From Spirogloea muscicola (lineage: Eukaryota > Streptophyta > Zygnematophyceae > Spirogloeales > Spirogloeaceae): 34,172 bases of DNA. Shown here one piece after another: positions 3,100-29,700 of this stretch. The stretch spans positions 30,612 to 64,783 of the forward strand of contig WELB01000180.1 of assembly GCA_009602725.1 (NCBI GenBank), read 5' to 3'. How positions within the stretch are numbered: the first letter of the stretch is position 1; every line of letters begins with the position of its first letter. A program made the translations under genes and the position numbers. The notes under the pieces were generated by a model. The model was not told where the DNA came from. It saw only the letters and a list, made by a program, of their open reading frames with translations, and searched no databases.

Positions 3100-3415
3100 T
3101 TTAGCCAATGTAGGCTACACTCGACGCGCAGATGTGTTTCCGGCTGAGATGGGCTTGCCAGCTGCATATCTGTCGCTCTTGCGACATCGAGTTTCGGCCT
3201 GTTTGCAGCGTGCTCAGGCTAGTGCCTTGCACCAGAAAGCTGGGCGAGCTCTAGTAGGTGGCAGAAGGGCTCCGTTCCTGGCATCTAGTATTCATGCATC
3301 GAGTAGTGACCTTTATGTTTTGACCCGTGGTTATTGAGCGGGTCAATCTGCTGTAGGTTATGTAGATTTTTAGATGTGCTTGCCTTTGTACCTGGCCATT
3401 TGGCCTACATTTCTT
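3100..3415 (+). mobile_element. Dispersed repeat copy (RGY family)
   Basis: Contains an open frame ending at 3337 whose C-terminal part reads QRAQASALHQKAGRAL, then SSSDLYVLTRGY and TGA. The reverse-strand copy ending at 10574 has nearly the same peptide (QRSQALALHQRAGRAL, SLSDLFVLTRGY). The stop is followed by a cttgcctttgtacctggcc block, as in AOX intron 2. No transposase or reverse transcriptase is seen. Confidence 0.65.
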
Positions 3416-4600
3416 TCTAATACACGATCTTTTTCTTCTTCTGGAGCTGCAATTACATGGGCTCGTAGTTCAATACTTGCAGGAATGAAAGCTCAGGCAA
3501 TCTTTGGTCTGTTAGCTACCATTGCCCAGCTCTTCATTCAGGTGGCCACTTCGGCACACTGAAGACCTTGAAGTGGAGAATATCTGAGGAGACACCCTGC
3601 ACGTGCTAGACAGTCCTACAGAGAGATTATATGCGTCCTGTCTGCCATGAACATGCAGTCATTTTGGGCCCATATGCTTGACCGTGCTGTAGCGTGAGTA
3701 GGAGGCTACCACAACCCGCGTGGGGTGCCAACCAGCTGCTGATAATCTGCTACTGGCGCACGACTTGGAGGCAAAGAGATGCCGGACCATGAGCCCTGCC
3801 TACTGGTTCATGGAAGAGCACGCTCTTGTTATTGACATCGAGGCTCTGTCAGTGCACAAGACTTCTGATTGCTGCCGGGCCAGACCATTGTTGAGCTCAA
3901 CCATCACCCACTTGTGCAAAATGGGAAGGTGGCTGCAGTAGAGGCTTCGAATCACTCAAGAGGTGGGCCAGTGCCATGGCACGCATGGTGGCCATGTGCA
4001 AAATGGCCATGTGCAAATACTCTGGCAAGATGGAGAGACTTGGGGCAACGGTGGCTGCAACGGACGAGCTTGGCAGCTGCGCCTTCTGGCGCCGAGGCTC
4101 ATCGCTGGCAGGGCAACACGGAATAGCCAAACGGGGTCGGCCTTGGTGTAGTGGTGTCGAGGCCTTGCAGGCTTGTTCGTCATCAGCAGCGTCGCCAGAT
4201 TTCAAGTTCTCCATCGCAAGGTGGGCCCTAGCATGTGTGGAGTTGGCGCAAGGGGGTACGCCTCACAAGTGCCAGGCCGGCACGGACCACAGACGACTAT
4301 TACCACGATGGTGCCGAGCTTGCCCTCGTCAGCTTCTTCGACGTTCATGAGCTGGGCACCCCAAGTCAACTCACAAATTGCCACAAGTCAAGAGACAAGG
4401 CACTTCCAAGAAGCAGCTCTTTCACAGCAAGCTCTTCCATATGAAGATGAAGGAGTGTGTGGCTGCGAAGGCCAGCCCAAGTACGGGGGGATTTCAGGGG
4501 GGGATGCCCCACCATGAAAGCGCAACCACTGAGCTGAACAAGTGGCTACAACGGCTGGCCACTTCGTATATCCTAGTCAGATGCAGAAGTCGGGGTAACT
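3416..4600. other. No recognised gene; possible degenerate coding sequence
   Basis: Several short open frames on the plus strand (for example 3720-3941, 4173-4517, 4235-4444) but none matches a family I recognise, and they break and change frame. A 15-bp direct duplication (3990-4004 and 4005-4019, core ggccatgtgcaaa) is present. This could be a decayed gene or transposon remnant; no function assigned. Confidence 0.3.
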
Positions 4601-4611
4601 AGCTAAGGAAA

Positions 4612-4680
4612 GAAAGTGGCTCTCCCAAAGGGGGCGACGGCTGTGAGAAGCCAGCCTGAGAAAAGGGAAGGGCCCTTCTC
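4612..4680 (+). repeat. Copy of the hairpin repeat module
   Basis: Contains gtggctctcccaaaggggg and ggctgtgagaagccagcc, closely resembling the modules near 10385-10440 and 11340-11600 (inverted) and 29455-29480. Confidence 0.55.
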
Positions 4681-5270
4681 AACCATCGCCCTTCTGTAGT
4701 AGAGCACCTGTCCTCATCTATTCGAAAACATGATAATTCTAAATGTTGGGGATCAGGGGTTTGAGGTCCATCTGAGATCAGGGGTCTCAACTCGAGATCT
4801 CGAGAGGCGGGCGTGGTGGAGCGCCGTCCAGCGCGCAGCGGCGCGAAGCACAGTCGTGGAAGCAGGCTTAGGTCAGGGCGAGACTTGCGGAAGTTGCGGC
4901 ACGACGGCGGCGACTGCGGCGGCGGCGGCTCCTCGGTGCATCGTCCACAACCGGAAGCTGGCGGTGGTGACGACGCCGACGAAGTGAGCACTGGGGCCGG
5001 GCTCGTCCGAGCAGCAATTGCTTCGTGAAGAGCAACCAGCCTTGCATACTCGAGGCAACCCAGCAACAGCAGCAGCACTGCAGCGGCGGCACCAACGGCT
5101 GCCGCTGTGTCGAAGCGGCAGCCGCAGCTGGCGGTGACATCCCCGAAGAACCCACATGTGGCGCGACCCTGGTGGGCTCAAACCGTCGAAGCCCCGCAGT
5201 GGCTCCGGCTGCCGTTAGCTTCTTGGGCCTGCAGTAGAATCAGAGCCCTTGTGCCGCCGTCAGCGCGATC
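4681..5270 (+). other. Upstream region of the small gene at 5271
   Basis: Includes a palindromic-looking stretch around 4790-4805 (ctcgagatctcgag), GGC-rich sequence near 4905-4930 and a CAG-rich stretch at 5060-5080. Open frames on both strands appear to be composition effects. An in-frame TAG at 5235-5237 precedes the ATG at 5271. It probably holds the promoter and 5' UTR; no exact elements can be fixed. Confidence 0.3.
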
Positions 5271-5420
5271 ATGCTGCGGTCGTATGCCGTCGCGCTGTTG
5301 TCGCTGCTTGCCGGCGCGGCCGTGGTCCACAACTACTATAAGCCGGACCTGTCCATCCCCGGTCCAACGGGGGCAGGAGGCGGCAGTGGTGGCGTGCATG
5401 GCGGCGCTTCTCTTGATTGA
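5271..5420 (+). CDS. Small mitochondrial protein resembling BRAWNIN/UQCC6 (complex III assembly)
   Basis: A 49-residue ATG-TGA frame. It begins MLRSYAVALLSLLAGAAVVH, a single hydrophobic segment (residues about 5-20), followed by HNYYKPDLSIP (20-30) and a Gly-rich tail. This matches the layout and core motif of the BRAWNIN/UQCC6 family (human: AGAEVVHRYYRPDLTIP), inner mitochondrial membrane microproteins needed to assemble the cytochrome bc1 complex. The in-frame stop 36 bases upstream supports this start. The Gly-rich tail replaces the charged tail of the animal protein. No intron is needed. Family assignment rests on the short motif and is an inference; expression is not shown. Confidence 0.7.
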   Translation: MLRSYAVALLSLLAGAAVVHNYYKPDLSIPGPTGAGGGSGGVHGGASLD

Positions 5421-6343
5421 GCCGGTTTTCGGAAGGTGAGCAGCAGGGCGCCGGCCCATCTAAGGGTGCTTCTGAGGCACTGCTGCCGAGCAATTCCTAA
5501 GGATTGCTAGAGCAACTGTGAGCTCGTTGCTGATGCTGCAGACGTAGTGTAGGAGACATGCTGAAAAGTGTGTATACGAAGCTGCTAATTAGCTTCTCTA
5601 TGTGGGGCATTGGACTTTATCTACGTTTACTGACACCAGCAGTGTCAGAATGTGGAAATCGTGCCTTTATCCAGCCTGGACTATCTTGCTTGCTGATCTT
5701 GGCATAGCTAGCACACTGTCAATGCCTTGTGATTGTTGAAGTCGAATCTCCATCTGCAGTTGTAAATCAATTGCCTATACCCACTGCTACAGCACTGGCC
5801 AGTCGGCTCCTCTGCTGTAGTAACCTGTGGCAGGAAGTGGTTGTGCTCCTTTAGCAGATTTTGTTATGTCATGACACCCGAAAAGACTGGGTTCCATACT
5901 ATCGTTCCTGCCGGTAAAGAATGGTTATATTGCACATGTGCACATCAATCAAGTTGCTCAGTGACCTTTGAAGATCGTACACTGATTCAAGGTTTTAATA
6001 GTTGGTTAGTTTGTCGAAGTTTTGGGATAACGATCAAGAGTATGAAATGAATGTAATTCGTGTCACTGCAATTATGCAGTTCAATTGGCAGGAGTTCAAG
6101 ACATAGATATACATCCATCATGGCTGCAAGTGCCAGCATGGCAAATGCAGAGGCTTAGGCTGTCTAAGTGCACCCAGTAAAGCCCCATCAATCACATGTC
6201 TGTCACATTACGGGAGGCAGGCACAAGTAGGCAGCCTCTTCTCAGGATTGCAGCAGTGATTGTGGTTGCGAGAAAAGGCATACCAGTGGAAACGGCATAC
6301 CAAAGGAAACGGCCGCTTAGCTCCAGAACCTCATGCTTGGGCA
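5421..6343. other. Intergenic: 3' flanks of the small gene and the CRAL-TRIO gene
   Basis: No credible coding block on either strand. The 69-residue frame at 5841-6050 has no recognisable features. The sequence is less GC-rich than its neighbours and probably contains both 3' UTRs, since the two flanking genes converge. Confidence 0.45.
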
Positions 6344-8280
6344 TCATGTGGTGATGCTTGCGTGGCCGTTTGCATAATAACCTTTGCCCTCATTGGCCAC
6401 CCCACCTGCCTGCTCCTGCAGGCCCCTTCCTACCAACGGTAAGTGCCAGTGCTCCGCCTGCTTAAGGTCGTCTTGCTTCCGCAGCTTGCTGTAAGCCTCG
6501 TGGTCATACGACCATGGCTTCTTACCTCCAAACTGTTGATCCAACTTGTCGAGGTCAAATAACTCCTCCAGTAGCCTTGTACTTTGCGAACCTTTGGCAT
6601 AAATGAAACGAACCTTCTTTGCAGTCTTGCTGTCTATGAACGGTCTAATCATCTGCCAGTGAGTGCAAAAAAAATACAAGATTTAGTGCTGAGCTCTATT
6701 CGTAAGCAGCTGTGAGCGCACTGCTGGCTGCTCTGTGCACTACTGATGCGAGAAGCTGCTTAATGTGCTCAAGGCAGCTATCACCGCAAACTTTTGGCAA
6801 TATGCATGTAGTTGTCAAATGAGCAATTTGAGCAGATGTTTTGGCAAGAACTCACACTCCAGAAGGCCTCAAAGACTCTAGGAGGATTGTAGCAGATAGC
6901 CAAGCCCAGCCTCTCCGGGTAGTGGTTCTGGAGGATGTTGAGAGTCTCCCTGGCACTCTTCATTGGAGGAGAGCTCCTGTAAGTCCAGCCTTGGAAGTCC
7001 ACAAGCCACACCATCTGCTCTTGGTCTGGTGGAAGCGATATGACTGCATTCTCCAGGCAATACACAAGATGCCTCATCTGACTGTTGTGCTCGTTAGTGT
7101 TCTGCAGATAAAAGTTTAGCACAAGCTGAATCAGCAAAATCGGATGAGACTAGTCCAGATTCCAAAGGCGAAGGAGGATGGCATGTGACAGGAGAACATC
7201 AACTCTCTAGGCAAGGTCCAGCCTGTTTGAAGAAGCAAGGGACTAAATTGAGAGACGTGCCTCCTGTCAGAAATGAGCCTGTTCCTGACAGGAGAAGGTA
7301 GACGATGACAATGACATGCTTGAATAAGTTGCTGACCTGTCTTCCAGGGCACATGACAAGGACGCTGTGCCCCTTGCGATCAAGAAAGTCAGCTTTGTAA
7401 AGCTTTGCTGTTTCTCCCTCGTGTGCAACATCCTCCTGCTCAGCAGAAGCCGGAGGAATGTGAGCATCAATTAGAGCAAATGAAAACGACTGACATGCTT
7501 ATGGCTTATATCACCACCTTTCCTTGTTAATGTGCTGCTCAGCAGGAGCTGGAGGAACGTGAGCATCAATCAGAGCAAATGAAAACGACTGACATGCTTC
7601 TGGCTTATATCACCACCTTCCCTTGTTAATGTTCGAAATGTTTGCAGACACGGACAAGGATGACTGCCCAAGAAGAAGCCCAAGAAAAGGAAACACACCC
7701 ATTTGATTTCTTCAGGCTTGTACTTCTGGCGCCATTTTAACGTATCTCTTAGCATCTTCTCGGCCTTCTTCACATTCCAATTCCGAGCCTTCAAATAGCG
7801 CCGGAGACAACCATCTGTGCAGTAGATAGTCTGCTTCTCATCCAGAGGCCCCAAGGTAGCTCGGAGCTCCCGGACCTGTGAGGTGATTGAGTAGCACAGA
7901 AGCTTGTATTCTCAGTGAGAGCTGAACGAGGGCCGGCAGCAAGGTGAGATGAGGGCAGAGGAGTGAAGTAAAAGCCCGACTACATTACGTGTTTGCAGAC
8001 TCCTCCAGACGACATCCGGCAGCACGAAGATCAGAAACACCCCAGTGGTAGCCATTGGCTGAGAGATACGTGCAGCAACACAGATTTTTATCCGATAGAG
8101 AAGTACGAAGAAGTACCAAGGATGCTAAAACGACAGCCTGACATTGACAAAACTCTAGCCCGCACTGGCTGCTGTGAAGCAGAACCTAGTCAGAAGTGCT
8201 ACCTTTGCTGCATCCTCTTCTGGAGTCAGAAGCTCGTCCACTCCGCTCAGCCTTCTTGAAACCTGTCGAAACAGCACCAT
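6344..8280 (-). CDS. CRAL-TRIO (Sec14-like) lipid-transfer protein, complete 5-exon gene
   Basis: Predicted phospholipid or small-hydrophobe carrier of the Sec14/CRAL-TRIO family, likely cytosolic or membrane-peripheral. Exons on the reverse strand: 8203-8280 (ATG at 8280), 7699-7875, 7337-7435, 6856-7101, 6344-6652 (TGA). All have GT-AG borders with phase 0, giving 302 residues, the usual length of short plant Sec14-like proteins. The CRAL-TRIO-N helical region is about residues 30-85 (TDGCLRRYLKARNWNVKKAE, LKWRQKYKPEEIKW). The lipid-binding domain is about 86-250, with HLVYCLENAV, EQMVWLVDFQGW, LQNHYPERLGLAICYNPP, FEAFW and VRFIYAKG. The start is supported by a short Arg-rich N-terminus spliced in phase. 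No GOLD or nodulin tail follows. The ligand cannot be told from sequence. Confidence 0.93.
7437..7631. repeat. Tandem ~96-bp duplication in CRAL-TRIO intron 2
   Basis: Units 7437-7532 and 7536-7631 are near-identical (shared cores tgagcatcaat, gagcaaatgaaaacgactga, cttatatcaccacctt, ttgttaatg). The duplication includes the branch and pyrimidine region and the AG acceptor used for exon 3, so the intron carries two candidate acceptors about 99 bp apart on the reverse strand. Confidence 0.9.
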
Positions 8281-8730
8281 GGTGGCACAAACGTCCTGCG
8301 CGAGCAGTAATGATTTCAGTGCAACTGCAACTACAAAGCATCAGCAAGAATACCCAGCTTGTTACGCTGGAACCAGCAGGTCAGAATGATCAGGTCATAT
8401 GTATGCTAGCTTGCCGCTGCTACTGCACCGTTGCAAAGTCTCGAACGTTACTGAAACTTGAGACCTTTATGGATATGGTCAAGTCCTGCCGTCCCTGCTG
8501 CAGAACGACATCCTCACTGGCTGACTTGCCTGATTTTCCCACTGATTGTAACACTGATTGCCGGAGCCGCTTAAGCTTCAGCCTCACGAGCCTCACGCAG
8601 TCCCCAACTCGGCGCTTTGACAGAGTGACCAACGCGCTCGGCCGTGAATGGCGTCAGCGGCGTACGTGATGCGCCCGAAACGGCCGTGAATGGCGTCAGC
8701 GGCGCACGTGATGCGCCCGAAACGGCGAGA
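8281..8730 (-). promoter_or_regulatory. Probable promoter / 5' UTR of the CRAL-TRIO gene
   Basis: The region lies directly upstream of the ATG at 8280 and has no convincing coding block. A 42-bp tandem duplication at 8641-8724 lies 360-445 bp upstream of the start. Its second copy holds a perfect palindromic CACGTG G-box (8705-8710); the first has TACGTG at the same place. A regulatory role is inferred from position and motif only. Confidence 0.4.
8641..8724. repeat. Tandem 2 x 42-bp repeat with ACGTG core
   Basis: Two copies (8641-8682 and 8683-8724) differing at one base (T/C before ACGTG). On the plus strand they would encode a repeated NGVSGxRDAPETA, but that frame has no ATG. Confidence 0.9.
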
Positions 8731-8759
8731 GGCGGTGAGGCACCGCTAAGAGGCACCGA

Positions 8760-8997
8760 AACTGCCGCCGGACAAGCCGCCTGTGAGAGCGCTGCGCCGC
8801 CGCGGCGGCGGCGGCGGCGGAGGCGGCACGGAGCTGCGGCAAGAGCGGGCGCCGCGGGGAGAGTGGCCGTGAATGGAGGACGGGGGGTGTGCTGGGTAAT
8901 GGATTGAAGGGCGCAGGCTGACACTCATGGACACGCAATCAGGCAGCAAACACCTCTCCGGCCCCCTGGCTGGAGCAATGGCGTGTGTGATTGATTG
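8760..8997. other. GC-rich spacer with (GGC)n
   Basis: Contains a (CGG)n tract near 8800-8828. The open frames on both strands here are low-complexity Arg/Ala/Pro readings. No gene recognised. Confidence 0.4.
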
Positions 8998-9300
8998 ACG
9001 GAGGGCCTGAGTGGCCAAGTGGAAAGGCAAGCCCCATTGGGGGGGGGGGGCGACCCGCCCTGCGGAATGGGCTCGAAAGCGGCATTCGCTCACCGATCTT
9101 GGGAGCTCGGGGGTGCTCACCCCCTTCCAGGAGCCTAGCATCTCTGATCTGCGGCTGCTTAGCAGGGGTTACTGAGTGATTCGTAGCTGCTTTGTCTTTC
9201 TTAGCGCTTCCCCTGGCCCCCTTCTCGTCCTCTGCTCATTCTTCTTTGGGCTGGCTTTTCCAGCCCCTATCCTCAATGGGCGAGCACTTTCTTCACCGCC
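8998..9300 (+). mobile_element. Dispersed repeat copy (RGY family) with tRNA-like head
   Basis: Starts with ggagggcctgagtggccaag, an A-box-like motif (tggccaagtgg), then a run of about 12 G near 9040-9051 and an imperfect B-box-like ggctcgaaagc near 9071. It then encodes EPSISDLRLLSRGY with TGA ending at 9174. The tail (about 9176-9290) holds tagctgctttgtctttctta, the hairpin ggctggcttttccagcc and caatgggcgagcactttctt. The tail is closely matched at 22484-22620 and, inverted, at 29490-29640. Confidence 0.65.
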
Positions 9301-9620: not shown

Positions 9621-9900
9621 AAAGAAAGCGCGGCCAGACTGACTGGTGGCTGGGAAAGAGAGAAGGCGCGCGGGGCGCATGAAATGAAATGGAGGCCAAT
9701 TCAAGCCGACACTTGTTCAGGCAGAGTCTAGGGCAAACTAAACAGGGCTACATTCTACGGAAACCGAAACCAAGGTGCCTAAGGTGACATCAGTACCCAC
9801 AGGCTGGGAAAGAAGAAAGCGCGGCCAGATTGACTGGTGGCTGAGAAAGGCCAGCCCAAAGGAATCGACAAGGTCCTGAAGGAGCCGGAGTGCGAAGGAC
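9621..9900 (-). mobile_element. Nested repeat modules
   Basis: Two copies of a gcgcggccagattgactggt-type module (near 9628 and 9822; the first has agac) flank a tail segment at about 9659-9800. That tail is duplicated at 10440-10582 (shared gaggccaattcaagcc, ttgttcaggcagagt, actaaaca, gtacccac). The nested order suggests insertion into an older copy. Confidence 0.6.
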
Positions 9901-10040
9901 TTGGACTAAGACATCAGCCAGGGAACGCTCAGTAACCTCTAGTCAGGAGATGCAAGGAAGAGGTGAGCTCTTTCCAAAAGGGGGCGTGGAGGATGTGCAC
10001 GGGGCTCTTTGGTCCTTGTAGGTCGACCTCCTAGCCAGGC

Positions 10041-10270
10041 TTGCGCGCCGCGCTGTGTCCCGCAGGCGAGGTGAGCCGGCTGACTTCAACGCCGCTGGCT
10101 CGTGGGCCCATGTTATCGCATGCGTCTTTCAATGCCACTCCAGCGGTCATGGCCCACGCCTTGCATCTGCGTGCTGGCCGTGCTCTCGCTGCTCTGGCTT
10201 TCGGCAGGCGGATTGTTTTCCGGCTGCTAGTCTGTCAGATTTGAGGCTCCTCACTCGTAGCTACTGAGTG
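10041..10270 (+). mobile_element. Dispersed repeat copy (RGY family), frameshifted
   Basis: One frame encodes ALHLRAGRALAALAFG, close to the 22361 copy, and a second frame carries SLSDLRLLTRSY with TGA ending at 10267. The peptide is therefore split by an indel. Confidence 0.6.
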
Positions 10271-10314
10271 GTCCCTCCTACACCCGTTCTGCCATACCGC
10301 TCTTAGGCTCCCCC

Positions 10315-10573
10315 GTCATTTGGCCCCTTCGAACCTCTGTCAATTCTTTTCGGACTGGTTTTTCACAGCCCTTGCCCCTATTGTGAGAGCCACTTTCTTT
10401 CCGAAGGGGGCGGGGGCTGTGGATGGCCAGCCCAGAAAGAGAGAGAAGGCGCGCGGGGCGCATGAATTGAAAGGGAGGCCAATTCAAGCCAATACATTGT
10501 TCAGGCAGAGTCGAGTGCAGACTAAACAATGCTACATAACACGGAGACCTAATCTAAGGTACCTAAGATGACA
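10315..10573. mobile_element. Hairpin module plus second copy of the tail segment
   Basis: The left part (10315-10440) has ctgtcaattcttttcggact, ttttcacagccc and gggggcgggggctgtgg modules. The right part (10440-10573) matches 9659-9800. A shorter third match to the tail lies at about 11185-11235 in the opposite orientation (catgcgccccgcgcgccttc). Confidence 0.55.
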
Positions 10574-10740
10574 TTAGTACCCACGGGTGAGCACAAACAA
10601 ATCTGACAAGCTAACTTGGGGAGCTGGAGCGCCGCCACGAAAGCCGGAGGCCTGACTTAGAGCGCGCCCTGCACGTTGATGAAGAGCCAATGCTTGCGAG
10701 CGCTGCAAACTAAGCGAGAGCCGCATTCTATAATATGCAA
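10574..10740 (-). mobile_element. Dispersed repeat copy (RGY family), reverse strand
   Basis: On the reverse strand it encodes LSLQRSQALALHQRAGRALS and SLSDLFVLTRGY followed by TAA ending at 10574. The peptide matches the copy at 3100-3337 closely, although the DNA differs at many sites. Confidence 0.65.
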
Positions 10741-11330
10741 CTAAGGCCTGCGGAATGCTGGAGTGGCCCAAGCTGCCCCCCCGACTTCGACGACGCGCAT
10801 CAACCAGCCGGGCCAGATGCTGGATCAGGGAGGACCATTTCACGCCGTAGCCTCCATAGATATCCATGGCACACGGGTAAAGATGGTCCCCTCGAGGATG
10901 ATCATGGAAAGAATGAACAAGATCCAACGGGCCGGAAGGCGCCAAATCCACACAGGTATGAGGAGGCCCGAGATGGGCGCTTGCAACGGAAGGCCGTCGG
11001 TCAGCTGGAGTCCGCATCCGTCGCGTCCAGTCCCCACGAGACCTGGCGGTTTGCGATCAACCCGGTTAGCACCCTCAGGCCGCGCCTCCTTCGCCAGAGC
11101 CTCCGTGCCTCGCTTCCGGTTCCTGCGCCAGCTTCTCGCTCCTCTTTCCCCTTCTTCTTCTATCCCTTTCTTGGCCTCCCTTTCATTGGCCTCCCTTTCA
11201 ATTCATGCGCCCCGCGCGCCTTCTCTCTCTTTCTTGCGCCAGCTTCTAGCTCCTTTATCCCCTTCTTTCTAGCCCCTTTTTTAGTGAATGCTAAGGTTAC
11301 TAAGGGATCCATCTTACCGGGCAAGCTCTG
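10741..11330. other. Unrecognised sequence with a tail fragment
   Basis: Open frames at 10735-11331 (+) and 10840-11037 (-) show no family features; the minus frame ends in a hydrophobic stretch. At 11100-11270 there are repeated cgccagcttctcgctcc / cgccagcttctagctcc units and the tail fragment near 11185-11235. Probably repeat-derived. Confidence 0.3.
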
Positions 11331-12115
11331 AAAGAGCGCTTTTGACCCCTTCGGACCTTGTGTATTCTTTTCGGGCTTCCATTCCTTTGGGCTGGCCTCT
11401 CACAGCCACCAGTCAATTTGGCAGCGCTGTTGCTTTTCTTTCTTCTCTGTTGCGTTGCCTGCCGCTTTTCTGGCTGTGCCTTGCCCACTTTGCTGATGTC
11501 TTGAGAATAGTATCCCGCTTCTTTGCTCCATCCGGCCCTTTCAGACCCTGTCCATTCCTTTGGGCTGGCCTCTCACAGCCCTCTTGCCAGCCCTCTTCTC
11601 TGTGGGCGAGCACTGCAAATCTCACAGCCGTTGCTGTCAATCTGGACGGGCTGTTTCTTTGAGAGAGCCACTTCTTTTCCTTCTTGCTCTTTCTGGGCTT
11701 TCGTTCATTCCTTTTCTGGGCTCGCCAATCACAGCCATGGCCCTCGGTTAAAGAGTTAAAGAGTCTTTCTCCCCGCTTGAGCTGGCTCTCACAGCCCTCG
11801 CCCCATTAGAACGAGGAAGCGCGGCCAGATTGACTGTGGTGGCTTGGAAAGGCCAGCCCAATTTTGGAGAAGCCACTGTCTTGCTCCTTTGTGGGTACTA
11901 GAGTTCCTTTTCAGTCTAGCTTTCTTTCGGGCTGGTTATTCCAGCCCCTATTCTCAATGGGCGAGCACTTTCTTCTTTCTTTGTTAGGCTGGCCTTTCAA
12001 GAAGAAAGTGCCCGCCCATAGAGAAGATGAGCTGGCAAAACACACAATCTTACAGGCATTGCCTTGCGGTGATAGAGCTGTTTCTCTTCGATAGAAGAAA
12101 GCGCGGCCAGATAAC
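11331..12115. repeat. Array of GGCTGG...CAGCC hairpin modules
   Basis: At least six degenerate units in a row: gggctggcctctcacagcc (about 11391 and 11563), ggctcgccaatcacagcc (about 11718), gctggctctcacagcc (about 11780), gggctggttattccagccc (about 11930), and aaggccagccc in inverted form (about 11850). They are interleaved with gcgcggccagattgact (11819, partly 12100) and caatgggcgagcactttctt (about 11955). Single units also occur at 9250, 22575, 29400 and 29510. Confidence 0.7.
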
Positions 12116-12768
12116 CTCATGCTCACCGAGCACCGTCACTCCGTCGCATCGCTTCGGGCAGCCTCCTTCCCCTCGTTTGTTTCAAATACACAAAATTGCA
12201 TCCCCGCTATCCGGCCATCGCTTTTGTCGGCCTTCTCGTCTGTTCATTAGGGAGTTGGCTTTTCACAGCGCCTTCGCCCTTCTCTGGCAGAAAAATTTCG
12301 TGTATTTGCAATAAACGAAGGCCAACTGGCCAAGTGCAAAGGCAGCTCTGGCAGAGCTGCTTGTTTTAGGCTGGCTTTCGCAGCCACCGTTTGCCTCCGG
12401 GGCGCCTTCTCTCCGGGGAAACAACTCCCGTGCTGGGCCACGCCGTCTGTCGGCGCACGGCCGCGCCGCTCCGCGCCTGGCGGCGCCGCTCGCGCTGGCC
12501 ACCGCGTCCGCGGCACGGGCGCCTGTGGATCCCGAAGTCCACACCCGAATCCCCGAGGACGCGCTGACGCGGCTGCCGTCAAAGAGCGTAGCGGCACGTT
12601 GTTAAAGGAGGAGCTGCAGAGCCCTTTGACGGTGCGGCGGTTTGGGTGAACTGGAGGCTTGAAAGCGCGCAATTAGCGGCATACGGCAAGGTGCTTGAAG
12701 CAGGCGGAGGCTAAGAGCTGCTGCCTGCGGATAACGCCTACCTGGAGCTGCTCAGGTGGGGCGTCGCC
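12116..12768. other. Upstream region of the P450 gene with a repeat remnant
   Basis: At 12312-12380 there is ggccaactggccaagtgcaa plus ggctggctttcgcagcc, a remnant of the A-box-like and hairpin modules. From about 12390 to 12600 the sequence is very GC-rich and unrecognised. The rest up to 12768 probably holds the promoter and 5' UTR of the P450. Confidence 0.35.
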
Positions 12769-15700
12769 ATGGCGACTGTGGCGAACGAGAGCACCTGGCA
12801 GCACATAGTGCAGTTTCACAGGGTTGCCGCTAGCAGCGTGTCGGACCACGTTCATGACCTCCAAGGCGCCCTGGTCGCGACTCCCATGGCAACCATCGGT
12901 GCTCAAGTCTGTGCTGTTGGTAAGCTTGGACTTGTACCACACAATTGCATGCATGATAATTGCAGCTAGCCGGACTTAGTAAGCTGGGAGAATCTTGCCT
13001 GCTTGTATTCGTCTGCTGTTGTAAAAGTTTGTAATTGCTATGTGGACCTGAGGCAAATTTCTGACAGAGTACAAAGCTTGTGACTGCCCGCTAGTTGTCA
13101 TTATTGGCCTTCAGTCGAGTAATCTAGAGGCCCTTGACTGCTGTGTGGATGAGATAGCAAGGGACTTTAGCTCCGCAGGCCTTACCAATAAGCTTAACGC
13201 TCTTGCGAAGCTGGCATGAATTGGCAACCCAATTTATACTTCACACTCCGTGATTGTGTGTATAATCTGCATTAAATTCCGCTCTAGATTCTTAACTACT
13301 GAGCTTGCAGAGAGGATACTAAGCACCCCAACTGCATTCTAATGAATACTAACTCGTGCTCCTCACAAAGTGTACTCCTGTTATTGCAGCTGTGGCGTAC
13401 TTGCTCTACAAATCCTTCTTTGCTTCCAAAGCAGAGAAGCTTGATAGCCCAGCCAAGAGGCTGAAGGGGCCTCCTGGTCAGTGGCTGCTGGGAAACTTGA
13501 TGGAGTTACGAGCAAAGGGCTATCCTGATTGTCACCTCCGATGGTTATTAAAGTACGGAGATTATTTCAAGGTATTCAGATATCAAAGGTCTGTCTTACT
13601 CAAAGTGGATTGTGCAGCATGCAAGCAGCCATGCATGCCGTCACCATCAAGGCTGGTCAGTCCGTGTTGTCTCTTGCTTCCACAAGTAAGCAGCACAGTC
13701 AGGTCTGCATTTTCTGGATTGATTTCTTCGTGGCAACGGGGTTGCCAATTGACATGCATTGAGTACCATAAGAATGCTGAAGGGCAGCCTCTTTGCTTCT
13801 ATGCAGTACAAGATGGGAAACATGGAGCTTATTGCAGTAGCAGATCCTGATGCAGTCAGGGATGTCTGTGTTAAGAACTTCCGTGCCTTTCATGATAGAC
13901 CTACCCCTCCTTTTGTCATGCGGAATGCGCAATCAGGAATGGTTTTCAGCAAGTATGTGACTTAGTTGTCCAGGTTTACCTCTCTGCTGTTCTTGCCAAT
14001 CGTTGATAACATCGTTAATACCCCCAAATAGGACTGAAGGTCTGACATGACATTGTAGTGCTCATTGCTCTGCAGTTGTTGGGTTATGTTCTTGACCACA
14101 TTGTTCTCATCGGCTTGAACGGTCTGTTGTGCTGCCACTTCTTCTCCAAGTTATCTTGTCTGCGCGTCAACTTTTGCAGGGGAGCTTACTGGACGAGTGT
14201 GCGTGGCACAGTTCTACCTCTCTTTCACACACAAAAGCTCCGGAACTACAGCGAAATAATGCACAAGGCGGCTTCTACTTTGTGTGATCGTCTTGCAAGC
14301 ACTCCAGAGGGCAAGCATGTGGATATGCTGACGCTCGTACAGGCCATGACCTTGGATGTCATCGGCACTGCCGCATTTGGCATTCACTTTGGCATGCAGG
14401 AGGATGGAACAGATGTAAGCACCTTGTCAACACACTTGGCTAATCTGCAGAGGTGACAACAAGACAGTTCGATCATTTATCTGCTTTGGCTGCAGGGTAT
14501 ATGACTGAGCATTAACATTGTGCTACTGCAAGTTTTGCAGAAAAAACTCCTGGAGATGCTCTCAGAGAACATCCGCCGGACCACAGAGTTGAGGCTCAGC
14601 AACCTGATCGGCCTCTTCATGGGCTCAAAGTTTGTGTTCGCAGCCCAGGAAATGTTGGGGAAGATACCTGGAACCTTAGAATATGCTGCTAAGCAGCGAG
14701 TGACTTACACAGCAGGTGCAAGCTTATCAATTATCAAGGATCGTCGAGCAAATCCAGATGAGACAAGGCAGGACCTGGTCTCAATACTCACCAGGTAAGG
14801 CTATCCTCAGACAAACGACAAGTTGATGCTGCTACAGCATCACAACCATTTAGCTTCTTCATGCTTTCGTCTCCTCACACTTCAGTTGCTGGCTTGACTT
14901 CGTGGTGGGCCCTTGCATGCTGAGCGCGATTGCCATGCACCTGGCACTGCAAGATTGTGGCAGTCTCGAGTCTGACCCCTTCTGTTGTGGCAGTCTCCGT
15001 ACAAAGGACACAGGCAGAAGCTTGACGGATGCAGAGGTTGTCTCTCTGGTCACTGAGTTCATGGGTGCTGGCTCAGACACAACAGCCAACACCGTGGCTT
15101 TTGCCATCTACTTGCTGGTTAAGCATCCAGAAGCAGAGAAGAAAGTGCTGGCCGAAATTGACAAATACACAATTCCAGCTCAGGTCATCTACATACACCC
15201 TGCTCATTGACTTCCTTCTACTAACAATCAACAGCCTATCTGCAGGGGATGCATGTATAGTGGTGGTGGGCGAGCTACATTGCACGTAGAGGAAGCTTTT
15301 AGTATCAGCGATTGCGAAGATGTTGTGGCACTTGTGTTCCAATGCTTGACAACGTATCTGTCGAACTCTAGGGTGGTGAGGACGAAAAAGATGGCAACGG
15401 TGGCAATGTTACCCACCCCACTTTTGAAGAGCTATCACATTTTCCTTACATCGAACAGGTGGGCAGTGGTGGCAGCACAGACTGTCAGGAAGCTTCTGTA
15501 GCTCGTCACCAGTGTGAGCAGTGACGGAGCTCTTAGAAGTTGACCTTTGATTAATAAGCGCCATAGAGATGTGATGTGAAGGGCGGCAAATCCTGTGAAC
15601 ATTAGTATTGTTAGCTGGTGGATCCGTAATTGTGACTTTGTCTTCGCATGCAGGTGCTGCAAGAGACACTCAGGCTCTATCCAACAGGCGCCGTCCTTTC

Positions 15701-18005: not shown

Positions 18006-18036
<31 letters not shown>

Positions 18037-18537: not shown

Positions 18538-18549
18538 CTGCAAGCACTT

Positions 18550-18582
<33 letters not shown>

Positions 18583-21725: not shown

Positions 21726-22360
21726 CTGGCGAGCCGAGGGCCCACGACAGAGCCGCGCCCGAGGTCAGCCGCCGGCAGGCCAAGGCAAGACTGCCGTCGC
21801 CGAACGCTGCGGGAGCCGGCCTGGAGGCGGCGGCGGCGGCGGCGGCGGCGGCGCTCCCGGCGAGAGCGCAGCGCACCCGCTTCCGGCCAAAAAAAAAAAA
21901 AAAAAAAAAAAAAAAGCCGCCGGCGACCTCTCGCGGGTGGCGGCGGCGGCGGCGGCGGCGGTGGCGGTGGAGGTGGCGGGCGGACGGGCGAAGCTGCGCT
22001 GATCGGGCGGGGGGGTGATGGTGGCCGCCGGAAGAGACGGTTAGTGGTAACCCAATTCCATCAACGTGGCCCGTCTCGGAGCAGCGGGGAGCCTCCGCCG
22101 GTGGGCTTCGGTGCCACCGAGTGCCGTTCTGCAACCCCGCCTCCTTTTGATGGAGATGGATTAGGAGGGATCACAGGGGGCTGTTAGCGCCGTTAACAGT
22201 ACCCCCCTAAAATTGCCCCGCGCCTTCCCGCTGTGGCCTGCAGGCGGCTCCGTCTCTCCGTCCCACTGGCGGCTGCTGACGGCGCGGCGACCTGACCCTG
22301 CTCCCCTCCACCTCGGCTTCTCCTTGGCTTCGTGTAGCCACATTCTGGCTGCAGAGGTCT
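21726..22360. other. Upstream of PARP gene: low-complexity and unassigned
   Basis: Holds two (GGC)n tracts (about 21823-21855 and 21940-21985), a 27-base A-run (21889-21915) and a GC-rich stretch. It may include the missing 5' exon(s) of the PARP gene, but none is convincing. Frames rich in Arg/Gly/Ala are repeat readings. Confidence 0.35.
21889..21915 (+). repeat. A27 homopolymer
   Basis: Twenty-seven consecutive A on the plus strand between GC-rich sequences. It could be a retroposon tail or a pyrimidine tract (T27) in a 5' intron of the minus-strand PARP gene. Confidence 0.9.
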
Positions 22361-22625
22361 ATGGCCCGGGCGTTGCACCTTCGTGCCGGCAGAGCCCTCG
22401 CTGCTGCCTCTGGCTCTGGCCCGGGGACCCACTTCCACGAGCCTAGCATCTCCGACCTGCGGCTGCTTAGCAGAGTTTACTGAGTGATGCGTAGCTGCTT
22501 TATTTCTCTGTGTGCTTGTTTTTCATAGCGCTTCCTCTGGCCCCCTTCTCGTACTCTGTTAGTTCTTTTTTGGGCTGGCTTTTCCAGCCCCTATTCTCAA
22601 TGGGCGAGCACTTTCTTCTGGCCCT
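22361..22625 (+). mobile_element. Most intact RGY-family repeat copy
   Basis: An ATG-TGA frame at 22361-22483 encodes 40 residues: MARALHLRAGRALAAASGSG followed by PGTHFHEPSISDLRLLSRVY. The tail (22484-22620) has tagctgcttta, cttcctctggcccccttctc, the hairpin ggctggcttttccagcc and caatgggcgagcactttctt, matching 9176-9290 and the inverted copy at 29490-29640 closely. Confidence 0.7.
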
Positions 22626-22815
22626 GGCCAGGGACCCGCTACCAGGAGACCAGCTTCTCCGACCTGCGGCTGCTACACAGGGGTTACTGAATGTTTTGTA
22701 GCTACTCGACTTCCTGTGTGCTTTAGCGCTTTCGCTGACCCCTTCGATCTAATTACCTTCTCATTTCTGGGCTGGCCTCTCCCGGCCACCGCCCTCTCCT
22801 GGAAGCGTCTTTCTT
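22626..22815 (+). mobile_element. Second tandem RGY-family copy
   Basis: Encodes TSFSDLRLLHRGY with TGA at about 22687-22689, followed by a degenerate tail with gtagctact, tgtgctttagcgctttcgct, a gggctggcctctcccggcc hairpin and tctttcttcttc. It follows the 22361 copy directly in the same orientation. Confidence 0.6.
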
Positions 22816-23060: not shown

Positions 23061-23846
23061 GTTTTTCCCTCCCTTTCATGTCATTAACACCGCATGTTTC
23101 CTCCCTCTCCGAATGACCACTCAGCTCTTTCAGGCGGGACGTGACAATGCTTTCGAAAGGCCAGCTCGTGAAGGGATTGGATACCTGCATTGTATGCAGA
23201 TTCCACTGGCTGAGTACGACAGTAAGCCAGCTGTACAGAAGGTTTGCAAATATTACACCACTTCAAATACAGAATAAATGATACGTATGCCATAGAGGCT
23301 GACATTTCTCTGGGCTTTGCAACAGATTATACACACTATGCACCAATTCTCTGCAGAAAGTGCCAAGAGAACGTTCGAAAGCTCTTCCTGATTGATGGAA
23401 GTGGTAATGAAGAGCATGAATAGTCATCCATACTCCAGCTTGTAAGTACAAGCTTATAGCGAGTATACGGCATGCCTCCCCAAATATGGGGAAATGAGTC
23501 CCATTGAAAGAAGAATCACAGAACAGGATGAGCTCACTACCCCCCGCAATCTTACTCTCCAGACATGAGTTGACTGCTTGGTGGTCACTACCTCTTGGTA
23601 CAGCCTCTATTGTGTAACATCTCACACACCAAGACTTGAGTATACTGCACTGCTGGAGATCGACTCGAGCTTTCTCTCAAACAATAGCGAACATACATTG
23701 AAGCCAGCAGCCCAGGAGGACAACCATGAACTATCTGATGGCCTCCTGTATGTCCACCTTGAGCAGTTTGCCAGAAGGTAACTGAAATGTAGCAGCCAAT
23801 ATCTCAAGCAGTTGAGCACGGCTCATTGGAAGCACTTGATCTGCTT
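23061..23846 (-). other. 3' flank of the ABCG gene
   Basis: No recognised coding block. The minus-strand frame at 23263-23625 (120 residues) has no family features and lies where the ABCG 3' UTR is expected. Confidence 0.4.
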
Positions 23847-26800
23847 CTACTTCAATTTCATCCGCCTCAGCGCAATGTATGCCAGGAGGTTGTAACCCAC
23901 CCACATGAGGCAGAGCGCCCAAGCCTCCGTACCCCCGCCATTTAGTGAGACCTTTCGAAGTGCTGGAGCGCCGCTGAGTGAACAGGTCATGCTTTGGACA
24001 TTATTCGTGGGTCCACAGAAGTAGGTGTCAGTGGGGTTGTACTGCACTTTCAGCATCAACCTATAGACGTAGTAATTGAAGCTGAGATACTTGATCCACT
24101 CAATCCAAGGGGGTATATGCTGCACAACGAGACAGAGGAAGTAGTTATATCAGCTGCATTAAGTGATTGATGTGCAGTGAAATGTTAATCGACCAGCTTT
24201 TTCCTGAGCAATTTCTTACTTGCTTACTAAGCAGTTCCTTCTATGCCCAGCGATGACTATCAAATGAAAGTTACAACTGTTTCTCTTCGTACTACTTTCA
24301 ACACTAAGGCAATTTATTGCAGCGTACCTGAAGATAGTATCCACCAGCAAGCATGAAAGTGAGAAGGATGACAGAGGCATAAGTGGTTGCTCGCTTTACT
24401 TGCATGACTGCTGCTCCTATGAACCACCCCATTGCCTGCATCACAGAGGTGAAGAGGTGCATAACTATTCCACTCGTTCATGAAATTATGGTCCTCACAC
24501 AGAACATCACGTAATGGTGGGTGGTTAGATCACAATTGTCACGTTATTTTTGCATAAAATCTGGCCTTACCTGAGCAACAGAGACATCCACAAAGACTGT
24601 AAGAACAGTCAAGAAGAAGAGGCCAGCATCTGCTTTGAGATTCGCCATCCAGTAGACGATGCAGATGAAAATCAGTGGTAAAATGAGCTCCATAGGTACA
24701 TCAGCGCTCGTCCGACTGACATAGTATGCACTCAGTCTGTACATGTCTGAAGCACGCTCCTTCATAAGCATTGATCTTTCCTGTACAGAGAGCAAATGAC
24801 AACCCTTTGTTTGTCACGATTGTTCTTATACTTGCCCAAAGAAAGGCTTAGCATTTTCTGTAACAAGCATGCACCCTTATGATTTTTTCCAGGGAGGGAG
24901 GCGCGGGGAGGGGAGGTTCCAATGGGGGAGTTCCAATAGCAACATGCAAATGCCACGAGGCTGCACTTGGATTTGCAGAGAAGATGGACCATGCTGTGAG
25001 CATTGCTGCTTGTACCTGAGGGAAGGTGAAAATGGCTGTGAAGAGAGGGAAGAAGCCCCAAAAGATGGACGTGAAAAAGAGCACACCAACCTGTACATGG
25101 GGTCAAGAGGCTGTCAGCTGACCACATTTATCTTCAAAAAGAATTTGCACTGCAGCAGCAAGAGATCACACATGCCATACTTTGTCATAGTTATGTAATG
25201 AGCTCAAGGTGTCATATGGCAGCCCACCTGCTCCTGTAGCTTTTGACTGTTACTGTGGTTAGAGTTGTACCACAGACTTCCACAAATCAGTGATATAGCA
25301 AGGACTTGGAAGATTCTCAGGAAACTGAGGTACTCGTGGCGGCGCTCCTGCCAAACCATTTGCAGCAACAGTCAGCAAGAAGAGGATTGATGTCCAGACA
25401 TAACTAGTACTCTCTGTAATAACAACTCCTCCTTGTCCTGCACCGAATATTGCAACCCAACGGCAGGCAGAAAGCTTGTGTACCTTGAAGCCTCTCTCCA
25501 CAAGCACTCTGTACTGCTCTACCCAGGTTGAGCTCCACTCCCTCTTCTCGCGAATAGCACTGCGAGCTCCTTCACTGACGATGGGCATGTTGTGAACAAG
25601 TGATTTCTCTCCTGGTAGCAATTTCTCAAGGAACGCTGTTGCCAGATACTGCAGAGAGACCAGACAATATCATTCAGATTTTCACTGCCAGATACGTACT
25701 TGAAATAAGTCAACCGCAGAAAAAACTGAAAAGCTATCTTTCAAGCGAGCTAGATAAGCAACAAGAACGTTGCAGGGCCAAAGCACTGTGCTTATACCTC
25801 CCGGACTTCTTTTTGCTGGTCAGCAAGGGGCACGGTCGTGTATTTCATCTTTCTCATAAGAGTCTCAGGCACAGTTATGTCCTGCGTAGTACCAGTGGCT
25901 AGGTCCAGAATGAAGTCGGCCGGATTGGTGGCAAACATGGGCGAAAAGCCAAGGCCAGCGAAGTAATTCATGGCTTGCTTGCCCTTCCCAAAGTAGATGG
26001 CATTGCCTTCGCTCAGTAGGATGAGCTTGTCAAACATGTGGAAAACACGACTAGAAGGCTGGTGAATGGTTGTGATAACTGTGCGCCCGTGCTGCAGAGG
26101 CCAATTGTCAAGTATGTAAGTAAGAGTGTTGCCATTCTCTCCCCAATCTGTTGCAAAGAGGTGTTTCTTTATAAGATCATGAAAATGAATGGCGCCAAAA
26201 TCTATAAGAGTCTTTGCAGATGTACTGCTGAGGGCAGGCGACTCAAGAGAGACATAGTAACATAAGCTCAGCATGCAACTTACCTGTGCAAGATTCTGTA
26301 GAGTATGCATAATCCTCAAGGCGGTTGTAGAGTCCAATCCGGATGTTGGCTCATCCAGCATGATCAGAGAAGGGTCAATCAGAATCTCATGCCCAATGCT
26401 TACGCGCTTACGCTCTCCTCCAGAGATACCTCGCATGAATTGACCACCGATGATGGTATTGCGACACCTGCTCACAACAGGCAGGTCATCAAGCTCAGAA
26501 CAGTCCACAAAGTCCGTGAGGTCCCTGATGTTATCCACCACCAATTGACAGAACACGATATCACAGCATAGAGGCCGCCAGGACCTATCCTTCCAAAACC
26601 ATCAACAACTTGCAAAGTGCAGCAGGTGAACAGGTGCCGACAAGGCAGGTGTACCTTTCCAGTCCTAGCTCATTAATGATGTCATCTGCACGCTGGATCT
26701 TCTGTGATCGGGTCAACTTCCTTGGAAGGCGGAGCAAAGCAGCATACATCAGAGTCTCCCGTACTGTCAAGTGTGGAAAAAGGATGTCATCCTGGGTCAC

Positions 26801-28344
26801 AAAGCCAAGCCTGCACAGAACATTTTGAGGCAACGCAAAACTTAGATACTTGTGCTGTTCTCCTGTTCAGTTTGTTTGCCAGAGTACCCACCATGACTGC
26901 AGACGGGGAAAAGCTGGTAAGCTTTGACAAGTACTTATAGAGGTGCCAGGGGCATGGATAAGACAATGCTGAAGTCATTGTGAAGTGCACGTGACCTCAC
27001 CTTCTTTTCAGTGACTTGCTGTAAGGTGCATCATTATAAGAGACTACTCCTGAGGTTTTGCCAGCTCCAAAACGACCACCCAGGACGTTGAGAAACGTTG
27101 TCTTTCCCGAACCAGATGGTCTGTCATGCAACAGATGACCGCCCTGGCTCAGGACAGGTAATAAAAAATGGTGACGCTGCAGCAGAGAAGCTGCTGAAGT
27201 GGTAATTTGTTTGACAAATTCATGAACCTGTCTTTGACAATTGCAGGCCACTGTGACAAGCCTAAAAAATCACCGGCGCTGCAGCCCACCTACACTTAAT
27301 ACAGACTCCACATGCAACACATCTGCATGTGACGCTAGCGACAGCGAAGCTCATACCCCATCATTGCAAGAACCTCCCCAGGCAGGACGCTGCCTGTCAG
27401 CCCGTGCAGGATCTCCTTCTGTATGCCACCCTTTCTGCTCTTCTGGAGCTGCGCTGCTACATTCCACCACTTTGGTGGAGCTTGCACGGTCACAGTGTAC
27501 TTGACATCTTCAAACTGTTCAATTGGAACATAGAACAGCAATGAGCACCATCGTGAGCTGCGCAACTTGATAAAGTAACCTACTCTCATCCTAGAAACAG
27601 TGCAAGTTGCTGCAAGCAAAGATAGCTGATTGAAGCTGCAACAACATGCACTGCATCTCAAATGCAGCTGTGAGTGCAGACCTTGACAGCAATAGGCAAA
27701 GGCCTGTCCCGTCGGCTCAAGGAACCAGCATCAGGATCGTCCAACGTGATAGCATACGAATCAGCGTGACCATTTGCATGACCATTCGCGTGGCCATTTG
27801 CATAACCGTTTGCATGATCCTTGAAACCCCCGCCGCCATTGTCATCCTCCCCTACTGCACATACGAAGGTGCAACAGTGTGCCTAAGTGAGCTGCACACT
27901 CCTCCAAAATCTGCTATCACACAGCGGAATGTGGGCATGATGGCATAGCAAGATACATGCGCGATCTCAGAATGCATGAGACGTCCTCAAGAAGGCAATG
28001 CACTTGGCCAAAGGTAAATGCAAAGGGATGAGCACTTGCAATCGGACAATATGCATCAGTACTGCTGCACAGTGTAGAGCAGGAGGATGCCGCACAGATT
28101 GCGAGACCGCGAGAAGCAGCGCCAAAGGAGTCCAGGGGAGGAGATTCTCACGGGATGATGGCATGGGGCTGATGGGCATCTGCACAGGGCCTCCCGGAGA
28201 GAACGAAACTCTGGCCGAGCTGTCCCTCTCGAGCTCGTAGTCCGCCTCGTTGGCATCGTTGGCGCTGTCCAGCCCGAAAGCACCCTCGGCGGCATGGTCG
28301 GGAAGCGCCTCAGCCGCACGGCCGTCCAGATGGCTGCCGCTCAT
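23847..28344 (-). CDS. ABCG half-transporter (white-brown complex type), complete 13-exon gene
   Basis: ATP-driven membrane exporter that works as a dimer; plant relatives move cuticle lipids, hormones or other small molecules. Reverse-strand exons: 28152-28344, 27682-27854, 27357-27514, 27001-27120, 26655-26810, 26284-26467, 25798-26091, 25484-25648, 25228-25347, 25016-25090, 24571-24780, 24328-24435, 23847-24119; 742 residues. Nucleotide-binding domain first (ABCG order): Walker [10 protein letters not shown] (Lys about 181, split by an intron), Q-loop VTQDD, signature ISGGERKR (about 281-288), Walker B LIMLDEP (about 301-307), H-loop TIHQP (His about 338). Then about six membrane segments between residues 489 and 738, with [19 protein letters not shown] between the second and third. 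The N-terminus has a HANG repeat. The substrate is unknown. Confidence 0.95.
27760..27816 (-). repeat. 12-bp coding repeat (HANG) in ABCG exon 2
   Basis: Encodes [19 protein letters not shown], about 4.7 units of four residues, in the N-terminal extension before the nucleotide-binding domain. Third positions vary between units (aac/aat, ggt/ggc, gca/gcg), so the repeat is not a fresh slippage product. Confidence 0.85.
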
Positions 28345-29395
28345 TGTGCCCCGAGATCTGGTCGCGCCGCGGAGGCACACAGAGCTGGCCAGTCAGCAGC
28401 GGAGGCCAAGCAGCGGAAGCCCAAGTCTAGCTGGTGTTCCCGAACGGTCGAGACTCTCAGGCAGCCATCAAGGCATGGCATCCATAACACAATATGTAGG
28501 GGCTGGCGGGACAAGCGATGCGGCACTGAGACAGCGGCGGCTGACGGCGCCCGTGCACGCGGCAGGGAGCGAGGCCGTCCGGCCGAGGCTGACGGTAGTG
28601 GCGAGCGAGCGCAAGGCCGCTCCCGAGGCAGGCGGCGGAGCGGCCACCAGCGGCGGAGGGACCGGGCCAGGGCCCAGGGAAGCTGACCAGCGGTGGGAGG
28701 GCGAGGGCGGCAGCGGGGGCTCAGTTCTCCGGCCTCGCCGCCGCGGCGCGGGGCTTCTCGCGCGCGCCCGCGACGGCGANCAAGCGGCGCCAGTTGATGC
28801 CTGCCCTGACGCCTCGGCCACGCCACCGTGACACACCACCCCCCCCCCGGGGCCCCTAACCCACTTCCATTACCGCTCCCGTTCCGACGGCGGCCCGGCG
28901 CTTCGCTGCCTCTCGAAGCCCATCCAGCGGCAGTGGAGACGGCCGGGGCGCCCGTCGCCATAAGTGATCTCCATTAGCTTGACTGTCGATGGGCCCCCCC
29001 CCCATGATGGCCACGCTAACGTTGCCGCCCCCTCGGCGCGCCGCGTGGGCGTCCGATTCTTAACCGCCCGATGGCCTGCATCGACGGCAGCCATGCGCCG
29101 TGCACGCCGAACCTTCCCCTTTCGGAAGGGGGTCCGCTCCCGGCCCCACACTGCATCCGCCACGTGGCGCGCGTGCGCCCCGTCGCCACCCGCCGCTGGC
29201 GTCACCTCCCCCCCCAGGTGCGCAGCCCCCGTTGCCGGGAAACCCCTCCCCTCCTCCTCCTTCCATCCACCCTTCTGAGAGCTCCCGCTTTCTGGGGCTG
29301 GCCGGCTCTGTTTGGTGAAAGCTCGTCTTCCACCGCGAGACGGCGCGCTGTGCGCGTAGAACGAACGGGAGGCCAACGGCGATGTCTTCAGAAGA
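28345..29395. other. ABCG upstream region and GC-rich unrecognised DNA
   Basis: The part near 28345-28500 probably contains the ABCG 5' UTR and promoter. The remainder is very GC-rich, has one N (28780), short C-runs near 28840 and 28993, and overlapping open frames on both strands that are composition effects. ctttcggaagggggtccg near 29120 resembles a piece of the hairpin repeat. Confidence 0.35.
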
Positions 29396-29700
29396 AAAAG
29401 CGCGGCCAGATTGACTGGTGGCTGGGAAAGGCCAGCCCAAAAGAATGGACAAGGTCTGCAGGGGGCGAGGGCTGTGAAAACCAGAAGAAAGTGCTCGCCC
29501 ATTGAGGATAGGGGCTGGAAAAGCCAGCCCAAAGTAGAAGTTCTGAACAGAGTACGAGAAGGGGGCCAGGGGAAGCGCTAAGAAAAACAAGCACACGAAG
29601 AAACAAAGCAGCTACAAATCACTCAGTAACCCCTGCTAAGCAGCCGCAGATCAGAGATGCTAGGCTCCTGGAGCGCGCCCTGAGCGTCTAAACTCATGGA
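29396..29700 (-). mobile_element. Inverted RGY-family repeat copy with adjoining module
   Basis: Reading the reverse strand from about 29680: EPSISDLRLLSRGY-like end (stop at 29623-29625), then the tail with tagctgctttgtttcttcg, gcgcttcccctggcccc, ggctggcttttccagcc and caatgggcgagcactttctt. It is followed by the gcggccagattgactggtgg module (29400-29425). It is the inverted equivalent of 9110-9290 and 22440-22620. Confidence 0.7.

Follow-up and report, generated by a model that had tools for sequence, protein, structure and literature searches.

The stretch of DNA analysed here (the window: 34,172 nt, forward-strand positions 30,612-64,783 of contig WELB01000180.1 of the Spirogloea muscicola assembly GCA_009602725.1) contains dispersed copies of a repeat encoding a short peptide that ends in SDLxxLxRGY. 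We propose, with a probability of about 0.96, that these repeats belong to several related families of non-long terminal repeat retrotransposons, that is, of long interspersed nuclear elements (LINEs), and are copies truncated at the 5' end. What had been taken for a micropeptide in an earlier reading of the sequence alone is the C-terminal tail of the LINE protein, and its ATG is an internal Met codon.

Repeat copies in the window

The sequence-only reading had reported at least eight motif copies, and an SDLxxLxRGY-like end is indeed present at all eight reported sites, namely at 845-874, 3305-3334, 9143-9172, 10235-10264, 22451-22480 and 22658-22687 on the forward strand and at 10577-10606 and 29626-29655 on the reverse strand. 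The loose pattern that covers all eight had no match in 60 dinucleotide-shuffled versions of the window. A stop codon follows the motif directly in seven of the eight copies, in line with the statement that most copies end there; the exception is the copy in an intron of the alternative oxidase (AOX) gene. That the copies retain SDLxxLxRGY holds for an end of this type at all eight sites, but not to the letter, as the copy at 22361 reads SRVY instead of SRGY. The same peptide is encoded by differing codons, with cgt ggt at 3305-3334 and agg ggt at 9143-9172, as had been pointed out. The repeat exceeds the peptide: in repeat searches and alignments, similarity continues past the stop codon into a common 3' untranslated region (UTR) with a hairpin and, in longer genomic copies, upstream of the peptide into a long open reading frame (ORF).

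Genome-wide searches were run on the 153 Mb assembly of 471 contigs that contains the window, and genomic copies cut out for comparison were labelled L001, L006, L022-L025 and L054-L057. The families compared were A (L023, L024 and L025), B (L055), B2 (L054), C (L057 and L056) and D, represented by a C-terminal fragment in L022. All eight window copies align to the element ends of at least one family by DNA or protein, seven of them by protein. Two belong to family D. The first, at 799-955 on the forward strand, contains the motif at 845-874 and matches the family D 3' end of L022 at 83.5% (E 4e-41); it lies in an intron upstream of the AOX exons at 1382-2238 (forward strand), for which Pfam PF01786 matches (E 3.5e-32 and 4.8e-41) bear out the name given to this gene. 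The second, at 3137-3398 (forward), ends with SDLYVLTRGY and a stop codon and matches family D in blastn at 72.6% over 3215-3398 (E 1e-22), the tblastn match to the family A ORF reaching just E 0.26. Within L022 itself, the frame of the family D copy at 796-1257 starts with a sequence resembling the tail of another LINE, apparently a nested insertion.

Three truncated copies are of family A: one at 9119-9294 (forward), complete with 3' UTR hairpin and element end (90% to L023 3922-4101, E 1e-65), one at 22344-22619 (forward), in which the internal Met codon at 22361 was mistaken for a start and which ends with SRVY and a stop codon (87% to L023 3839-4102, E 1e-95), and one at 29483-29672 on the reverse strand (85% to L023 3929-4102, E 4e-58). 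The second of these is abutted by an older A-type copy at 22617-22742 (forward; 77% to L023 3904-4027, E 1e-20). The family C copy at 10413-10912 (reverse) consists of 112 ORF-end codons (10577-10912) and the 3' UTR; it matches family A in tblastn (E 3e-14) and the DNA of L056 at 96.5% over 10413-10696, and has at least 35 other genomic copies at 99%, all with one score. A decayed copy at 9965-10404 (forward), which we call family E, carries an in-frame stop and a frame break and ends with SDLRLLTRSY and a stop codon (tblastn of 9965-10264 to the family A ORF 40%, E 9e-7; DNA 71% over 10070-10208, E 6e-12).

Nine extra blocks of the same 3' ends lie within the window, some of them weakly matched. 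Family C 3' UTR fragments are located at 9655-9803 (reverse; 86% to L056, E 7e-45) and 11185-11234 (forward; 95.7% to L056 over 11185-11231, E 4e-16), a terminal hairpin with element end of family A/C type at 11920-11976 (forward; 98% to L023 over 11925-11976, E 7e-20), a 3' terminal fragment of family A/B type at 12000-12041 (reverse; 83%, E 2e-6), a 3' terminal fragment resembling the family E copy at 4607-4662 (reverse; 82% to window copy 10265-10404, E 4e-10) and a 3' UTR fragment of family B2/B type at 29420-29456 (reverse; 89%, E 2e-6). The weak matches are a possible family D 3' UTR fragment at 9000-9040 (reverse; 83%) and possible 3' terminal fragments of family B at 11584-11613 (forward; 90%) and of family A/B at 29713-29746 (reverse; 90%), each with E 1e-4. 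An Rfam scan of the window gave no match and no ribosomal RNA (rRNA).

The peptide is the end of a long retrotransposon ORF

L001 and L006 are alike over more than 1.7 kb, mostly upstream of the peptide, and translation of their frames gives the C-terminal half of a reverse-transcriptase protein. When a 438-residue piece of L006 was compared with the genome (10674 candidates, best 96 scored), 13 of the 96 matches had an identical score of 867.5, next below the query itself; for twelve of these the open frame measures 1142-1357 residues and for the remaining one 671, and none has an internal stop in the match. The full-length copies L023, L024 and L025 differ pairwise by 5, 1 and 6 bases over 4,102 (99.85-99.98% identity), and the LINE families are partly young. 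The L023 ORF has 1299 codons from the first Met in frame and contains the reverse transcriptase domain RVT_1 (Pfam PF00078, E 7.9e-16, 58.8 bits against a cut-off of 29.6). An intact family A element measures about 4.1 kb. Its single ORF of about 1,300 codons encodes, in this order, a proline-rich N-terminus with putative C2H2-like fingers, the reverse transcriptase, a putative zinc knuckle, a candidate endonuclease and a basic tail that ends with SDLxxLxRGY. Comparing the first with the last 400 bases of L023 revealed no long terminal or terminal inverted repeats, the best words being 9-12 bases long (E 0.23 or worse) and none of them terminal.

The proteins of families B, B2 and C share 51-68% identity with that of family A, and the ORFs end with SDLLLLTRGY in B, SDLMLLTRGY in B2, SDLFVLTRGY in C and SDLYVLTRGY in the D fragment. 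The reverse transcriptase and the peptide share one frame in the long copies of four families. One of the proposals made from the sequence, that the motif is formed by the final codons of an unknown ORF of a mobile element, was therefore correct, and the outcome named there as speaking against a peptide of its own, that the sequence is part of a transposon, was reached by linking it to the element ORF rather than through a named library. As far as testable, the families are new LINEs of known kind, and we make no claim that they are absent from Repbase.

A second proposal was that a non-autonomous element had captured a presequence exon for mitochondrial import. The terminal R-x-Y resembles a presequence processing motif, and the numerous short copies that agree at their 3' end would suit such an element. 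However, four families have long retrotransposon ORFs that terminate, in frame, with this peptide, the 5' ends of the copies vary, and no host gene starting with the peptide turned up among the best-scored candidates, although no dedicated search was made. We regard a captured presequence as having next to no likelihood.

Selection on the C-terminal tail

The comparison of nonsynonymous and synonymous change across copies, which had been suggested as a check, gave different outcomes between and within families. For a 56-codon tail compared among five families, nonsynonymous differences amount to 0.09-0.48 per site and synonymous differences to 0.61-0.83; omega is finite in three of the ten family pairs (0.08, 0.17 and 0.36), with synonymous sites saturated in the other seven. 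Within family A, 21 copies show 24 nonsynonymous changes, one new stop and 11 synonymous changes, corresponding to 0.0130 nonsynonymous and 0.0160 synonymous changes per site and copy, and the synonymous share of 11/36 is close to the neutral expectation of 0.27 (p 0.57). B2 and B differ in their tails by 11 nonsynonymous and 29 synonymous changes, in contrast to the 25 (including the stop) and 11 in family A (Fisher p 0.0005). The tail is thus under purifying selection between families and drifts neutrally among the 21 family A copies, which indicates that the conservation belongs to the active source elements and not to the short copies. Selection on these source elements has kept the tail, and it ends once a truncated copy has landed.

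These results bear on the idea of a real micropeptide gene family, in which short ORFs from the ATG to SDLxxLxRGY are translated and kept by selection. The frame at 22361-22483 is open in the window copy, and the peptide is arginine-rich and conserved despite DNA differences between families. Yet the position of the putative start Met is occupied by Met in A, by Leu in B and B2 and by Gln in C and D. Three window copies start only after this position (at 9119, 22617 and, in reverse, 29672), and long copies read through the Met from the reverse transcriptase. Together with the neutral drift within family A and the lack of any family in a Pfam search of the in-frame tail peptide, this makes a micropeptide family highly improbable.

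Truncation and the common 3' end

Exact 24-mers taken from L023 at 867, 2283, 3291 and 3976 occur 31, 30, 77 and 627 times in the genome (reversed-pattern controls, 0), with the caveat that the four words are not necessarily common to the same subfamilies and that some copies may duplicate one locus, since C20 and C338 agree in their 5' flank and in the distance to a second, inverted copy. An excess of about 20-fold of 3' ends over reverse transcriptases is a signature of 5' truncation. The exact 21-mer TCAATGGGCGAGCACTTTCTT was found 961 times in forward and 988 times in reverse orientation, and its reversed pattern not once in the genome. To compare individual copies, a 200-base query at 22361 was used against the genome; of 3580 first-look candidates the best 40 were scored, giving 49 matches. 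Twenty matched family A copies were taken with their flanks and aligned together with the window copy, and these 21 share a common 3' end and have varied 5' ends, in a sample that consists of the best query matches and is therefore biased to copies spanning the query.

The short 3' UTR carries a GGGCTGG/CCAGCCC hairpin and the element ends with TTCTTCT, the terminus reading ...GGGCGAGCACTTTCTTCT. The hairpin is common to families A, B, B2 and C and folds in each of the four 3' ends that were tested. Another type of hairpin, GGGCTGGCCTCTCACAGCC, was seen with variants at 11378-11580, 22758-22787 and 29392-29449 and also in the flank of an insertion; it may represent the 3' terminus of a further LINE family or of a short interspersed nuclear element (SINE).

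Relationship to known LINEs

A profile built from the four families, spanning the reverse transcriptase through to the C-terminus, had three hits in the PDB, all of them R2 retrotransposon proteins (E 4.9e-8 to 1.1e-5). With 670 residues of L023 alone, R2 proteins were found at E 0.056 and 0.071, followed by cytochromes, and the 438-residue piece of L006 had one chance hit in the PDB (E 1.9). Pfam searches with element pieces gave nothing above cut-off and a single chance match (E 0.15), and the NCBIfam group II intron reverse transcriptase model scored 21 bits against a cut-off of 300. The N-terminal C2H2-like patterns were seen by eye, the Pfam C2H2 models giving E values of 0.09-0.36, all below cut-off. 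Downstream of the reverse transcriptase follow W-L-x-ALP, a C-x-C-x12-H-x3-C knuckle, R-x3-H-D, D-x14-D and a conserved Lys, of which the knuckle, D-x14-D and the Lys are invariant in the four families. The spacing of D-x14-D...K is similar to that of the catalytic residues of R2-type restriction-like endonucleases (RLEs). We therefore suggest that a candidate RLE of the PD-(D/E)XK type follows the zinc knuckle and that the families are apparently of RLE type. No APE endonuclease family was found by Pfam up to E 1 in the 1,299-residue ORF.

R2-type proteins are described in PMC5678591 as having a helix ending with KXRINALP, a CX2-3CX7-8HX4C knuckle and a restriction-like endonuclease, which is of the PD-(D/E)XK kind according to PMC3636483. 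The elements described here resemble R2-type LINEs in the long single ORF, the exclusive R2 hits in the PDB, the finger-like N-terminal motifs and the ALP linker followed by a putative zinc knuckle and an RLE-like D-x14-D...K. They differ in their C-x-C-x12-H-x3-C knuckle, in the conserved SDLxxLxRGY tail and in being dispersed over many flanks, whereas R2 resides in 28S ribosomal DNA (rDNA). Membership of the R2 clade in the strict sense, with its fixed 28S rDNA site, was rejected, as a family D copy lies in the AOX intron, the family A flanks are varied and the window contains no rRNA. Dualen/RandI, a LINE reported from Chlamydomonas-group green algae, is described with a PD-(D/E)XK-like endonuclease (PMC8226300, PMC3636483), but Dualen possesses an APE endonuclease in addition, and the lack of an APE match in our elements argues against it. 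The HERO clade, characterised in PMC4640811 as RLE-encoding with many non-specific elements, is similar by this description. Zepp and ZeppL are likewise algal, and Zepp forms clusters according to PMC8226300, as copies here sometimes abut each other; they are L1-type LINEs, however, whereas no APE domain was found in our elements and their insertion beside other copies was not above the local background. Two peptide patterns searched in viral contigs gave 52 stretches, none of which is a relative.

One might speculate, with considerable doubt, that the families represent an undescribed RLE-type LINE lineage that, lacking site specificity, has multiplied to thousands of copies in a streptophyte-like alga, with the invariant C-terminal RAGRAL...SDLxxLxRGY as a functional docking motif peculiar to this lineage. 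If so, the docking motif might, for example, release the endonuclease from a fixed target.

Insertion sites and proposed mechanism

Family A copies have many different flanks. Among the 13 near-identical copies, five start with ...CCATCTGGTCGCGGGCG, two share just ...TCTGGTCGCGGGCG, one starts with TCGCGGGCG and one is shorter, the remaining four having no such start where predicted. Ten of the 13 end with ...CACTTTCTTCT, C338 has a variant of this end, and C55 and C165 have no such end where predicted. C20 (about 1131456-1135335) and C338 (about 9969-13848) each contain two copies in opposite orientation with equal spacing, and the two loci have the same 5' flank and different 3' flanks; they probably represent either a single locus that occurs twice in the assembly or the product of recombination.

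Copies that abut each other at 22344-22742 and in L003, L004, L007, L009, L015 and L018 prompted us to consider self-targeting, that is, insertion into older 3' ends. For 19 copies, after dropping the 5' flank of L005 and the 3' flank of L011 (N) and the 5' flank of L015 (its alignment starts in the shared 3' end), such sequence was present in 6/17 5' flanks and 7/18 3' flanks against 413 of 1685 background windows (24.5%; p 0.40 and 0.17), and self-targeting is not supported.

We propose that the element protein would nick the target and, on recognising the 3' hairpin in its own RNA, prime reverse transcription there. Copying would mostly halt early, leaving most copies as the last codons plus the 3' UTR. 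The conserved tail presumably works within the endonuclease/reverse-transcriptase machinery.

Several observations weigh against this interpretation. Target-site duplications are short and irregular: over 20 rows, three of which have empty or N flanks, the mean longest shared word is 4.9 compared with 4.29 in shuffled pairs, with 34 of 500 shuffles as high. The whole 3' end clearly beats shuffled sequences in two of the four cases (z -3.59, -2.44, -1.26 and -0.44). A profile of the C-terminal 260 residues had no PDB match up to E 10, and Pfam names nothing in the candidate endonuclease region, so that the endonuclease is read from motifs alone. In addition, the starts of six of the 18 truncated family A copies fall into a 12-base interval, at 1479-1490 (flank coordinates) and just upstream of the query start at 1501, which may reflect ascertainment or a preferred stop, and some of the 627 occurrences of the 3'-most word could come from a SINE that shares this 3' end.

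The last two points lead to the alternative that the short copies are mostly a SINE sharing the LINE 3' end rather than truncated LINEs. It would account for the clustered starts and for the 3' UTR 24-mer being eight times commoner than the site about 700 bases upstream. On the other hand, the remaining 12 of the 18 starts are spread over 1124-1446 (flank coordinates), within the LINE ORF and collinear with it, and the 21 aligned copies have no common non-LINE head. We therefore consider a SINE origin of most short copies unlikely and favour 5' truncation of LINEs.

The conserved 'peptide' in intronic and intergenic DNA is transposon sequence, which is relevant to the annotation of this genome. 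In addition, these LINE families of a photosynthetic eukaryote, which are partly young and seem to be of RLE type, offer a conserved C-terminal tail and a 3' hairpin that are biochemically testable.

Other features of the window

Besides the AOX gene, the window contains the start of a GRAS-domain protein at 33088-34170 (reverse strand), with a Gln/Ala-rich N-terminus and a PF03514 match (E 3.6e-14), and a fragment of an ABC transporter at 25795-26601 (reverse strand; ABC2_membrane_7 E 1.2e-9, ABC_tran E 9.9e-6). The GRAS domain suggests a streptophyte host, since GRAS genes are, among algae, indicative of streptophytes. The chlorophyll a/b-binding family gave 68 exon-wise matches in the genome. 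Two local tandem duplications are located at 7436-7632 (98 bases, 94%) and 8639-8722 (42 bases, 98%).

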